Assembly (NCBI GenBank): GCA_018969015.1
Contig: JAGWZE010000010.1
Coordinates: forward strand, 1 to 64,000
Reading direction: 5' to 3'
Source of the DNA: Alphaproteobacteria bacterium
GTDB taxonomy: Bacteria > Pseudomonadota > Alphaproteobacteria > Caulobacterales > Aquidulcibacteraceae
DNA length: 64,000 nucleotides
This document shows positions 38,997 to 62,763 of the stretch, in pieces (position 1 is the first letter of the stretch; every line of letters starts with the position of its first letter). The notes beneath the pieces were generated by a model that had not been told where the DNA came from, did no database searches, and was given only the letters and a program-made list of their open reading frames with translations. The position numbers were made by a program, and so were the translations under genes.

Positions 38997-40255
38997 GCGG
39001 CGTAGCGCGCGCGCCAGGCCTGCCCGAGCGCGATGTGCCAGGTGGGATGCGGTTCGGGCAGCGTGCGCGCGAGATCACCCGCCGAGGGCAAAGCGGCGTT
39101 GGCGGCCAGCGTGTCGAACGCGGCGCGCTCCGCCGGCGCGAGGCTGTCCAGCGCCAGGACGGTCGGATCGCCCCAGATCGCGGGATCGGCCTTGCGCGCC
39201 TGCGCGCGCGGCGACAGCAGCACGTTCGCCACCACCATCGCCGCCGCCTTGGCCGTGGCGTTGAACGGGATGGCGACGAAATGCGTGTTGGCGATCGTGC
39301 CGCCTTCGAACGTGAAGGCGCGCGTGGTCGTCGGAAGCCGGCCCGCCGCCACGGCCGTCGCGGCTTCGGCGGGATTGAAGGCGAACGCGAGATCGACCTC
39401 GGTGTCCTCGAGCAGCCGCATCAGGCCCGGATAATCCGGCGGAAAGGCGCGCCCGCTGCGCCACAGGTGCGGATGCAGCGCATCGAGATAGGCCCAGAGC
39501 GGCGCGGTCTGCGCGGCGAACCGCGCGGGCTCGACCGGCGCCGCCAACACCGCGCGATCCGCGATGAGTTCGCTCAGCACCTGCTTCAGGAAACTGACGC
39601 CGACGAAATCCCCAGGCGCGGGATAGGTGAAACGTCCACGTCGCGTCTTCGCCCAATCCAGCAAAGCCGGCACGGAGCGCGGCGGCGCCGGAAGACGGGC
39701 GGCGTCGTGGAAAAAGGTGATCTGCGCCATGCCCCACGGGCTTTCGTACCCGTCCGTGGGCAGCGTGAAATCGCGGACCGTCGATGGTTTGCCGATGCGG
39801 TCGACGAAGCGGAAATTGGGCAGCCGCTCCGCGAAGGGGCCGTAGAGCAGGTTCTGCGCGCGCGCGGCGGCGAAGTTCTCGCCATTGATCCACAGAAGAT
39901 CGATGGCGCCGCCGTCGCTGCGGCCCGCGGTCTTGTCGGCGCGCAGCCGCGTAACGCCCGAGCTTGGATCGTCCGTCTTCAGATGTTCGAGGCGGATGCC
40001 ATGCGCGGCGGAGACTTCCTGCCCGACCCATTCGATGAACGCGTTGATCTTCTGGTCGCCGGCCCACGCGCTCCAGCGCACCGTCTGGCCGCGGGCCGCG
40101 CGTTCGACGCCGGGCCAGTCGAGCGGCGGCGCATCGGCGGCGGGAGAGGCAGGGCGACAGGCCGCCAGGACGCCGGCCGCTGCGCCGGCGGGGGCAGCCG
40201 CGAGCAGCGTGCGTCGCGTGAGGGGGGCCATGGGGAAAGGCGCGGGGCGCGTCAT
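38993..40255 (-). CDS. ynjB: ABC transporter substrate-binding protein, YnjB-like
   Basis: A 420-residue periplasmic solute-binding protein, lipid-anchored. Motifs known from YnjB are conserved: GQTVRWSAWAGDQKINAFIE, DLLWINGENF, SPWGMAQITF, YLDALHPHLWRSGRAFPP, NTHFVAIPFNA and QARKADPAIWGDP. The leader contains RR and an LAAC lipobox (near residue 30), so Tat export and lipidation are possible. The start may be ATG 40255 or 40231; neither has a strong ribosome-binding site. It heads the operon and lies divergent from a 30-residue microprotein gene; the gap between them contains a CRP-like palindrome. The ligand is unknown. Confidence 0.88.
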   Translation of the reverse strand: MTRPAPFPMAPLTRRTLLAAAPAGAAAGVLAACRPASPAADAPPLDWPGVERAARGQTVRWSAWAGDQKINAFIEWVGQEVSAAHGIRLEHLKTDDPSSGVTRLRADKTAGRSDGGAIDLLWINGENFAAARAQNLLYGPFAERLPNFRFVDRIGKPSTVRDFTLPTDGYESPWGMAQITFFHDAARLPAPPRSVPALLDWAKTRRGRFTYPAPGDFVGVSFLKQVLSELIADRAVLAAPVEPARFAAQTAPLWAYLDALHPHLWRSGRAFPPDYPGLMRLLEDTEVDLAFAFNPAEAATAVAAGRLPTTTRAFTFEGGTIANTHFVAIPFNATAKAAAMVVANVLLSPRAQARKADPAIWGDPTVLALDSLAPAERAAFDTLAANAALPSAGDLARTLPEPHPTWHIALGQAWRARYAA

Positions 40256-40338
40256 CGCTCGTCGGATAGCGCACCGGGCGCGGGGCGCCAAACGCGCCGG
40301 CGCACGCCCCCGCCCCGACGGGGGCGCCTTCGCAGCGT

Positions 40339-40390
40339 GTGACCTCGGTCACGGCGGGGCGGCAGGGGGCGGCGTAGGCTCCTTTCATCG
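40339..40390 (+). promoter_or_regulatory. CRP-like operator and promoter of microprotein gene 1
   Basis: The palindrome GTGACCTCGGTCAC (40339-40352) lies within TGTGA-N6-TCACG, close to the CRP-family consensus. TAGGCT (40375-40380), a plausible -10 element, starts 22 nt after it and is followed by CCTTTCATCG. If transcription begins about 7 nt after that box, the palindrome is centred near -41.5, the class II activator position. The same sequence and spacing recur at 62587-62638 upstream of the paralogous gene. Confidence 0.7.
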
Positions 40391-40426
40391 AGACCGGGGC
40401 TGCGCCCCGCACCACGGGAGACCACC

Positions 40427-40519
40427 ATGATCCGCTTTGCTTCCCTCGCTGTCGCTCTGGCCGTGTTCGCGGGCGTGATCGCGCCGTTCGTGACCGTCGC
40501 GGCGCAGATCGTGGCGTGA
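40427..40519 (+). CDS. 30-residue microprotein, paralogue 1
   Basis: A 31-codon gene (ATG-TGA) encoding a hydrophobic 30-residue peptide beginning MIRFASL and ending AAQIVA. A paralogue at 62671-62763 is 18/30 identical, with shared MIRFASL at the start and AAQIVA at the end, so both are real genes under selection. The central part is one membrane-length hydrophobic segment; it could be a single-span membrane peptide or a signal peptide releasing a short tail. GGGAG (40415-40419) is a ribosome-binding site. It lies 64 bp upstream of the GST gene. I do not recognise this family. Confidence 0.7.
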   Translation: MIRFASLAVALAVFAGVIAPFVTVAAQIVA

Positions 40520-40583
40520 TCCGCGCCCGCCTTGCCTCGCGCCGCGACCGGGGCGAGGCTGTCACCTGATCTGCGAGGTGACC

Positions 40584-41198
40584 ATGCTGCTCTACTCCGC
40601 CCCGATGCCGGCGCCGAACCCGAGACGGGTCCGTATCTTCCTCGCCGAGAAGGGCGTGACCGTGCCGATCCGCGATCTCTCCCTGCGGGACGGCGACCAC
40701 AAGAAGCCCGAGTTCGTCGCGATCAATCCCATGGGCCAGGCGCCGACCCTGCTGCTCGATGACGGGCGCGCGCTGACCGAAAGCGTCTCGATCTGCCGCT
40801 ATTTCGAATCCCTGCACCCGGAGCCGCCGCTGTTCGGCGTCGATGCGTACAACGCCGCCGAGATCGACGTCTGGCTGCGCCGCGTGGAGTTTCGCCTGCA
40901 GCGCGCGTTGGGCCTCGTGTGGCAGCACACGCACCCGTTCACGGCTCATCTCGTCAAGCCGCAGTACAAGGAGTTCGGCGAGACGCAGCGCAAGGCCGCC
41001 CTCGCCTACATGCGCGAACTCGACACCGCGCTGGCGGACCGCGAGTGGCTGGACGGGCGCGCGTACACGATTGCGGACATCGTGCTTTTGAGCTGCATCG
41101 ACTTCGGACTCTTCATCGGCGTGACCCCGCCGGAGGATCTGCGCGCGCTCGGCGCATGGCATCAACGTGCGACGACGCGCCCAAGCTCGAAGGCCTAG
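40584..41198 (+). CDS. Glutathione S-transferase family protein
   Basis: About 204 residues with an N-terminal thioredoxin-like GST domain (LLYSAPMPAPNPRRVRIFLA and ATNPMGQAP-like AINPMGQAPTLLLDDG) and a helical C-terminal domain (TIADIVLLSCIDF). It conjugates glutathione to electrophiles or acts in thiol-dependent isomerisation. The ATG at 40584 follows GAGGTG; a GTG two codons earlier is a possible start. It lies 64 bp behind the microprotein gene and could share its mRNA, although a GC hairpin lies between (arms GCCTCGC 40534-40540 and GCGAGGC 40553-40559). Confidence 0.88.
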   Translation: MLLYSAPMPAPNPRRVRIFLAEKGVTVPIRDLSLRDGDHKKPEFVAINPMGQAPTLLLDDGRALTESVSICRYFESLHPEPPLFGVDAYNAAEIDVWLRRVEFRLQRALGLVWQHTHPFTAHLVKPQYKEFGETQRKAALAYMRELDTALADREWLDGRAYTIADIVLLSCIDFGLFIGVTPPEDLRALGAWHQRATTRPSSKA

Positions 41199-62586: not shown

Positions 62587-62638
62587 GTGACCTCGGTCAC
62601 GCCGTCCGGCCGCCCGCCCACATAGGGTCTTTTCAACG
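62587..62638 (+). promoter_or_regulatory. CRP-like operator and promoter of microprotein gene 2
   Basis: GTGACCTCGGTCAC (62587-62600), identical to the palindrome at 40339-40352, is followed after exactly 22 nt by TAGGGTCTTTTCAACG (62623-62638), 13/16 identical to the corresponding TAGGCTCCTTTCATCG. The repetition in two unrelated contexts shows this is a conserved regulatory module rather than chance symmetry. Confidence 0.75.
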
Positions 62639-62670
62639 GCGGCGCACATGCCGCCCGAAGGAGACCCGCC

Positions 62671-62763
62671 ATGATCCGCTTCGCTTCGCTCTCGATCGCC
62701 GCCGTCCTGTTCGCCGCGATGGCCCTGCCGGTCCTGACGACGGCGGCGCAGATCGTCGCTTAA
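62671..62763 (+). CDS. 30-residue microprotein, paralogue 2
   Basis: A 31-codon gene encoding a 30-residue hydrophobic peptide, MIRFASLSIAAVLFAAMALP at the start and AAQIVA at the end, 18/30 identical to the gene at 40427-40519. GAAGGAG (62657-62663) is its ribosome-binding site. The central segment is hydrophobic enough to be a membrane helix or a signal peptide; the strictly kept AAQIVA tail may be the functional part. It lies 64 bp upstream of a sensor kinase, exactly the same distance as paralogue 1 to the GST. I do not recognise the family. Confidence 0.7.
   Translation: MIRFASLSIAAVLFAAMALPVLTTAAQIVA

Follow-up and report, generated by a model that had tools for sequence, protein, structure and literature searches.

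A dispersed family of 30-codon microprotein genes with a common, predicted CRP-type class II promoter in an Aquidulcibacteraceae genome

CRP regulons have been described, as have microproteins that are exported or sit in a membrane. CydX, KdpF and AcrZ pack onto a partner as single-pass microproteins. The type I toxins of the Ibs/Ldr/TisB kind are tiny (about 30 aa), hydrophobic and multi-copy, with a structured leader. The streptococcal SHP come from a tiny gene that yields a hydrophobic C-terminal peptide; they are reportedly exported by PptAB and are said to act with an Rgg regulator. We know of no regulon made up of some twenty microprotein genes that are nearly identical. For the Phr/RRNPPA systems of Bacillota, the excerpts of PMC11343458 available to us describe a Sec leader, a cut by signal peptidase, a released peptide of 5–10 residues that is usually C-terminal, and duplicated pheromones. 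With respect to CRP, excerpts of two further sources give the consensus as TGTGA-N6-TCACA (PMC4005916) and describe class II promoters as having a site that overlaps the -35 region, with its centre at -41.5 (PMC2859248).

The window (the whole stretch of DNA that was analysed, 64,000 nucleotides) contains two microprotein genes, the features of which are collected in Table 1. As the first-pass annotation had claimed, both frames read through with equal length, and their translations, MIRFASLAVALAVFAGVIAPFVTVAAQIVA for copy 1 and MIRFASLSIAAVLFAAMALPVLTTAAQIVA for copy 2, are identical at 18 of 30 residues (60%). The good ribosome-binding sites that it described were also observed, GGGAGA ending 5 bases 5' of the ATG of copy 1 and AAGGAGA 6 bases 5' of that of copy 2. 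Its two-member family was an undercount, since a peptide search followed by a profile search gave 20 members in the own genome. The contexts of the two copies, which it had called unrelated, are so for the coding neighbours, but the control region is common to both. The selection that it had argued from the pair was borne out for the wider family and not for the window pair, because the two copies taken alone have diverged (pN/pS about 0.63).

Table 1. Positions in the window of the two microprotein genes and of the elements assigned to them
Feature	Position	Strand	Details
Microprotein gene, copy 1	40427..40519	+	30 aa; translation, own-genome peptide and profile search, pN/pS
Microprotein gene, copy 2	62671..62763	+	30 aa; translation, own-genome peptide and profile search, pN/pS
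CRP-type operator GTGACCTCGGTCAC, copy 1	40339..40352	+	centre -41.5; 14-mer identical at copy 2
CRP-type operator GTGACCTCGGTCAC, copy 2	62587..62600	+	centre -41.5
-10 element TAGGCT, copy 1	40375..40380	+	promoter alignment
-10 element TAGGGT, copy 2	62623..62628	+	promoter alignment
5' leader, copy 1	40387..40426	+	inferred +1 at A40387; ribosome site GGGAGA 40416-40421
Possible hairpin CGGGGC-UGC-GCCCCG, copy 1 leader	40395-40409	+	inferred
5' leader, copy 2	62635..62670	+	inferred +1 at A62635; ribosome site AAGGAGA 62658-62664
Possible hairpin GGCGGC-GCACAT-GCCGCC, copy 2 leader	62638-62655	+	inferred

When the copy 2 peptide was searched against its own genome (3.4 Mb), 19 matches, including the query, were obtained over residues 1–29 or 1–30. 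Sixteen of these had E < 0.01, and a 20th member was added by the profile search (E 0.0056). The matches are far beyond chance. All but one of the 20 read as exactly 30 residues, the member on contig C58 having a longer N-terminus. The first-pass annotation had pointed to related genomes as the place to look for homologous frames, and there they were found: with an alignment of 59 members (A2), members at E ≤ 0.01 were present in 37 of the 60 genomes of the taxonomic family, in 6 of its 14 genera, at up to 24 copies per genome. Within the 37, genus g9 is represented by a single weak match (G008, E 0.0033); with the first alignment (A1), one divergent member was seen in each of the three g9 genomes. 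Order-wide, 37 of 398 genomes matched at E ≤ 0.001, of which 36 lay inside the taxonomic family and one, a weak match (5.5e-4), in another. Among 385 genomes across the class, only the own genome matched at E ≤ 1e-4 (0 of 384 others). Terricaulis and Vitreimonas are assigned to the proposed Aquidulcibacteraceae in the available parts of PMC12700997 and PMC13109427.

In genera g1, g9 and g10, a longer, single-copy relative has a similar location, flanked by tsaD and gpsA and near hemC (L201, i.e., own C58:6103-6189 plus upstream; L035; L038; L041; L057:4531). At L041, tsaD and gpsA were not called. A tetR gene was called beside the relative in g9 and g10, and none in the own genome. Its upstream region has a TGACG-N3-CGTCA-like palindrome, not clear in L057, and is without a CRP site. 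The multi-copy family may have descended from this relative. It may also be noted that two 35-residue members of g12 (L031:1480, L036:1498) have a different upstream region with repeated GACAAAG-like boxes, and lie before a further frame.

The Ka/Ks-type check that the first-pass annotation had proposed was carried out on 141 genes read as exactly 30 codons, and gave a low pN/pS between close homologues (pairs 90–99.5% alike in DNA): 0.138 over 176 pairs from all genomes, and 0.197 for 5 pairs of the own genome. For own-genome pairs the ratio rose to 0.41, 0.64 and 0.73 in the bands of 80–90%, 70–80% and 60–70% DNA similarity; such a climb with divergence is what would be expected of old paralogs whose silent sites are saturating. 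An ATG start was found in 137 of the 141 genes and an SD-like motif in 133. A length of exactly 30 residues was observed for 124 of 164 distinct sequences, although it is partly a choice, the start codon having been taken by best profile score. Judged from substitution patterns, the members are real protein-coding genes under purifying selection. The most conserved residues are K/R3, A10, A18, A25, A26, V29 and A30, each in at least 131 of the 141 (A10 and A25 in 140, A18 in 136), followed by I28, A15 and Q24 (119–123 of 141). Among the 124 distinct 30-mers, 122 have a proline, and in 121 it is at position 16 or 20.

The family had not been recognised at first pass, and none of the family libraries searched gave a match. 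Pfam and NCBIfam were searched with 2 and 4 members, respectively, and the PDB with a profile of 59 members, all with no match; for 3 proteins tried against PHROGs, the best PHROG had an E of 0.26. Rfam, run on 40250-40650 of the window, returned two matches, both far below the gathering scores. The plasmid collection, for which the query was one Terricaulis-like member, gave no match. The strings AAQIVA and MIRFASL were present in no paper of the literature searched, and the literature on Terricaulis/Vitreimonas and on CRP with small membrane proteins yielded taxonomy and background only.

The 14-mer GTGACCTCGGTCAC has only two exact matches in the window, one per copy, equidistant from a -10-like element. 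In the own genome, the operator GTGAC-N4-GTCAC was found before 18 of the 20 copies, in one case with a mismatch, in a promoter having the -10 element TANNNT and followed by a predicted 5' hairpin; the operator is lacking before the C58 gene and before the second member of the C29 pair. The wider sample comprised 185 non-redundant genes from the fetched loci (local search, E < 1e-3), including at least one evident false positive (L051) and a shortened frame (L151). The operator, with at most one mismatch and 32–33 bases before [CT]ATCG, was found within 220 bases upstream of 127 of them, second genes of tandem pairs included. When 86 promoters were aligned on the operator and the ATCG-like start, the frequencies of T at -12, A at -11 and T at -7 were 1.00, 1.00 and 0.99, these letters not being selection criteria; 16 further promoters were shorter by 1–2 bases. 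The operator is a TGTGA-N6-TCACA-like palindrome, and relative to the inferred start its centre lies at -41.5, the class II position, with the -10 hexamer at -12 to -7. By these counts and this alignment, a rigid promoter architecture is common to most of the family copies. Position -32, which adjoins the operator, is a C in 98% of the 86 promoters, without evident reason.

A pattern made of operator, spacing and ATCG gave 91 matches in 19 of 30 genomes, while a single match was found across the 30 genomes with the reversed pattern, used as control. In the own genome, all 15 matches precede members. At least one match was obtained for each of the 17 multi-copy genomes, and one each for 2 of the 13 others. 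Twenty-nine of the matching places were fetched and examined. Members follow at 23 of these and a diverged member-like ORF at another (L253), and nothing related follows at L232, L238, L239 and L245, among which are the sole matches of G007, G008 and G014. When the pattern was mis-spaced (gap of 20–30 instead of about 33 bases), 5 matches were obtained in 23 genomes, none of them a correctly spaced member promoter; one (G000:C55:52163) overlaps the operator of a member on the opposite strand. The remaining one of the 29 places examined (L244, in G034) leads to a larger frame with a signal-peptide-like start (MTKLSASGFATAIALAMIAG...), possibly a non-microprotein member of the regulon.

Two proteins of the own genome were over the HTH_Crp_2 cut-off, and 9 gave weaker matches. 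One of the two appears, from a reading of its recognition helix, to be of the FixK/FNR type. In the CRP-like protein, a cNMP_binding and an HTH_Crp_2 domain were detected. The solved structure that it matches best is 3d0s, a CRP/FNR-family protein that we take to be M. tuberculosis CRP Rv3676, and both contain G-A-S-R-E-x-V-N in the recognition helix. The gene (start taken at MSERAP) follows one microprotein copy (C63) at a distance of about 165 bases, and precedes a gene with a Guanylate_cyc (class III cyclase) domain. A CRP orthologue (E below 1e-50) was detected in 35 of the 60 genomes of the taxonomic family: 33 genomes have both it and family members, 4 have members only, 2 have CRP only and 21 have neither, a count that includes G066 (57% complete). 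Fisher's test gave 3e-10 by genome, without correction for descent, and 3e-4 by genus, again without such correction and with g9 counted as both although the two were in different genomes. The co-occurrence follows clades and may therefore represent few events.

The exceptions were as follows. Members without a CRP orthologue are found in G025 (83% complete), G072 (79%) and G074 (91%, 5% contaminated), and also in G008, which has one weak member (E 0.0033). G015 and G020 have CRP and no A2 member, with one divergent member each when A1 was used; G023 and G030 have a distant CRP homologue (28–31%) and no member. Judged by these counts, the family and one CRP orthologue co-occur closely, not perfectly. 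Ten g12 genomes were examined, and in 4 of them the CRP gene also has a member behind it, at a distance of up to about 1.4 kb. In the same genus, the CRP orthologue adjoins a gene for what is presumably, from the start of the protein, a CcrM-like cell-cycle DNA methyltransferase (L205, L207, L211-L216), which may point to a link with the cell cycle.

A hairpin near the 5' end was predicted for 87 of 93 first-in-operon leaders, compared with 45.8 expected from dinucleotide shuffles, and the folding energy of the 93 was mildly below that of the shuffles (mean z -1.06). The outer helices comprise 43 different sequences, some of only 2–3 pairs; pairing is therefore kept while the letters change. 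The mean unpaired probability of the ribosome site was 0.69. That this site is kept free was not clearly supported, all four SD bases being unpaired in 32 of the 93 folds and mostly paired in 13. Nor was a hairpin hiding the site (GGTCTCTCC...GGAGAGACC) supported as such, because its first half coincides in part with the -10 element, which lies 5' of the inferred start, and the leader folds mostly pair at the 5' end. In tandem clusters of more diverged members (L074, L152, L162, L153, L158), a recurring intergenic stretch like GGCATCTCATA precedes many genes and may be an RNA or processing element.

The coding neighbours vary from copy to copy. As to the regulator of an envelope complex, a further role suggested at first pass, no constant neighbouring complex was recognised across the neighbourhoods compared, and no receptor or partner gene was recognised by eye near the copies among these diverse neighbours. 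A MazE-like antitoxin and PIN-domain toxin pair was seen between two microprotein copies (L191:5531-6213).

These surroundings bear on several other explanations of the family. If the ORF were a leader peptide, or part of a promoter cassette, it would control a downstream gene. A same-strand non-member gene indeed lies within 200 bp of 11 of the 20 own copies (by simple gene calls; CRP and a PAS-like gene are among them), but the other 9 are without one, 6 of them facing a convergent gene and the rest preceding another copy. With a co-directional downstream gene at only 11 of 20, the copies are not obligatory leaders, and the reading was rejected on these orientation counts; the downstream genes are, moreover, unrelated, and the amino acids, above all those of the C-terminus, are conserved. 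We consider it very improbable. The least probable reading of all is a small mobile or self-copying element in which the ORF is incidental. What favours it is the near-identity of three copies on C55 (L191, C55:50351-52367; 3–5 bases apart from their neighbours) and of two on C19 (L195, C19:3976-5341; identical across all 93 bases), which are alike from about -90 to the stop codon only, with unrelated flanks. Set against this are a pN/pS far below 1 between close homologues and the edges of similarity, which fall at the operator and the stop codon; no transposase or terminal repeat was noticed in an unsystematic look. Such edges suggest conversion between, or copying of, functional units. Between these two boundaries a unit of ~185 bp was either duplicated or has been kept uniform by gene conversion. 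Type I-toxin-like peptides, which would depolarise the membrane and slow growth at high cAMP, would account for the size, the hydrophobicity, the multiple and tandem copies, and a structured leader in which the ribosome site is at least partly paired in many folds. This explanation we also regard as improbable, though less so than the former two: in the two clusters examined, resemblance between the copies ends at the stop, with no conserved flank in which an antisense RNA could lie, the very C-terminus is strongly conserved and the promoter is of the activator type.

The remaining choice lies between cleavage and an uncleaved helix. Members have a positive N-terminus followed by a hydrophobic stretch, with 3 acidic residues across all 124 distinct 30-mers. 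In the group with proline 16, residues 18 and 20 fit the (-3,-1) rule of signal peptidase in 80 of 89 sequences (cut between 20 and 21), and for residues 23 and 25 (cut between 25 and 26) the count is 23 of 89; in the group with proline 20, residues 23 and 25 fit in 27 of 32 and residues 18 and 20 in none. The weighted fractions, 0.79 and 0.81, compare with about 0.2 from composition alone. For members of all lengths the expected site was found in 95 of 104 (proline 16) and 32 of 43 (proline 20), and all 20 own members fit at the cut between 25 and 26. The proline-20 group also fits inside the hydrophobic stretch, between 15 and 16 (weighted 0.78) and between 18 and 19 (0.63), because the chain is alanine-rich. 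The coupling of proline and cleavage site largely follows the genus split. The secreted short tail proposed at first pass gains some sequence support from the proline/cleavage-site pattern, and a membrane-peptide role is also conceivable. After cleavage the tail would have 5 or 10 residues, with a signal or a ligand of an envelope protein as candidate roles. Against cleavage, the conservation of A10 and A18 equals that of the tail, something that no signal peptide needs. They would instead belong, with K/R3, L7, F14, L22, A25 and V29, to the packing face of an uncleaved single-pass inner-membrane microprotein, held onto itself or onto a membrane partner, the amount being set by cAMP-CRP. Over the 124 distinct 30-mers, the conservation is weakly helix-periodic (p 0.03 for residues 2–30, 0.05 for 3–24 and 0.09 for 4–22), and the scarcity of acidic residues agrees with such a helix. 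It is a possible, if doubtful, explanation: no constant partner operon was recognised, a stoichiometric subunit would not usually be encoded in about 20 near-identical copies, and the coupled shift of proline and A-x-A is left unexplained. We slightly prefer the exported precursor because it would explain why proline and cleavage motif move together.

As a whole, a dosage-amplified cAMP-CRP regulon of exported micro-precursors is, in our opinion, just on the probable side; export and the function of the tail are what we infer from the peptide sequences. The unit would be a small, largely self-contained gene, ~185 bp from operator to stop, with a precursor usually of 30 residues. On a rise in cAMP, the CRP whose gene adjoins one copy likely binds the palindrome at -41.5, and the bound CRP would likely activate the copies together as class II promoters, with copy number setting the dosage. 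It is plausible that the 5' hairpin stabilises the short mRNA. The peptide, a minimal signal peptide in this view, is likely inserted N-in (K/R at residue 3) into the inner membrane through the Sec/YidC pathway. Signal peptidase I would then cut at the A-x-A-like site 4–5 residues after the single proline, a step for which the chances against an uncleaved helix seem about even. In that event the conserved tail would be freed into the periplasm, for instance as AQIVA or AMIVA in the own genus and as TLNQAAQIVA in the Terricaulis-like genus, and with its free C-terminus would carry the function, by signalling or by binding to an envelope protein. More broadly, the data suggest a tiny membrane-type peptide, exported or retained in the membrane, that is made in bulk when cAMP is high. 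A bolder extension, which we put forward tentatively and consider unlikely, is a Gram-negative counterpart of the signal-peptide-derived pheromones, with the ~20 cAMP-CRP-driven copies flooding the periplasm or the medium with penta- to decapeptides (AQIVA and AMIVA, or TLNQAAQIVA) and so signalling starvation to other cells or to a sensor in the envelope.

It is unusual for a set of promoters to serve, as in the own genome, a single 30-codon gene in many copies. Routine gene finders may miss so short a gene, and it lies outside all family libraries searched. Knocking out one regulator should switch off the whole family. If the tail is exported, the family would be a way into signalling by peptides, or envelope control, in this bacterial group.

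Compared with the systems described at the outset, the family shares features with each. Like CydX, KdpF, AcrZ and CcoM (36 aa), which have about 30–50 aa and one hydrophobic segment, the members are short and have a single such segment; each of those proteins, however, belongs to one complex, and no sequence match to them was found here. A position within or beside the operon of a complex, of the CydX/KdpF kind, was not observed, the neighbours being diverse. Like the Ibs/Ldr/TisB toxins, the members are tiny, hydrophobic and multi-copy with a structured leader, but here the promoter is of the activator type, the C-terminus is conserved and no conserved antisense space was present in the copies compared. 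With SHP the family has in common the tiny gene and the hydrophobic C-terminal peptide, whereas PptAB and Rgg were not seen here. The Phr/RRNPPA systems resemble what is proposed here, from sequence, in the Sec leader, the signal peptidase cut, the short C-terminal peptide and the duplication. They differ in that the present family is Gram-negative, with 30 aa instead of 50–120, in about 20 dispersed copies behind a CRP-type promoter, with no receptor gene recognised alongside. The promoters themselves agree with E. coli CRP class II promoters, so far as the available parts of the sources describe these, in the fit to TGTGA-N6-TCACA (PMC4005916) and in the centre at -41.5 (PMC2859248), with the -10 element in place. 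Unlike the E. coli promoters, which serve varied catabolic genes, all 15 full-pattern matches of the own genome precede one microprotein gene.
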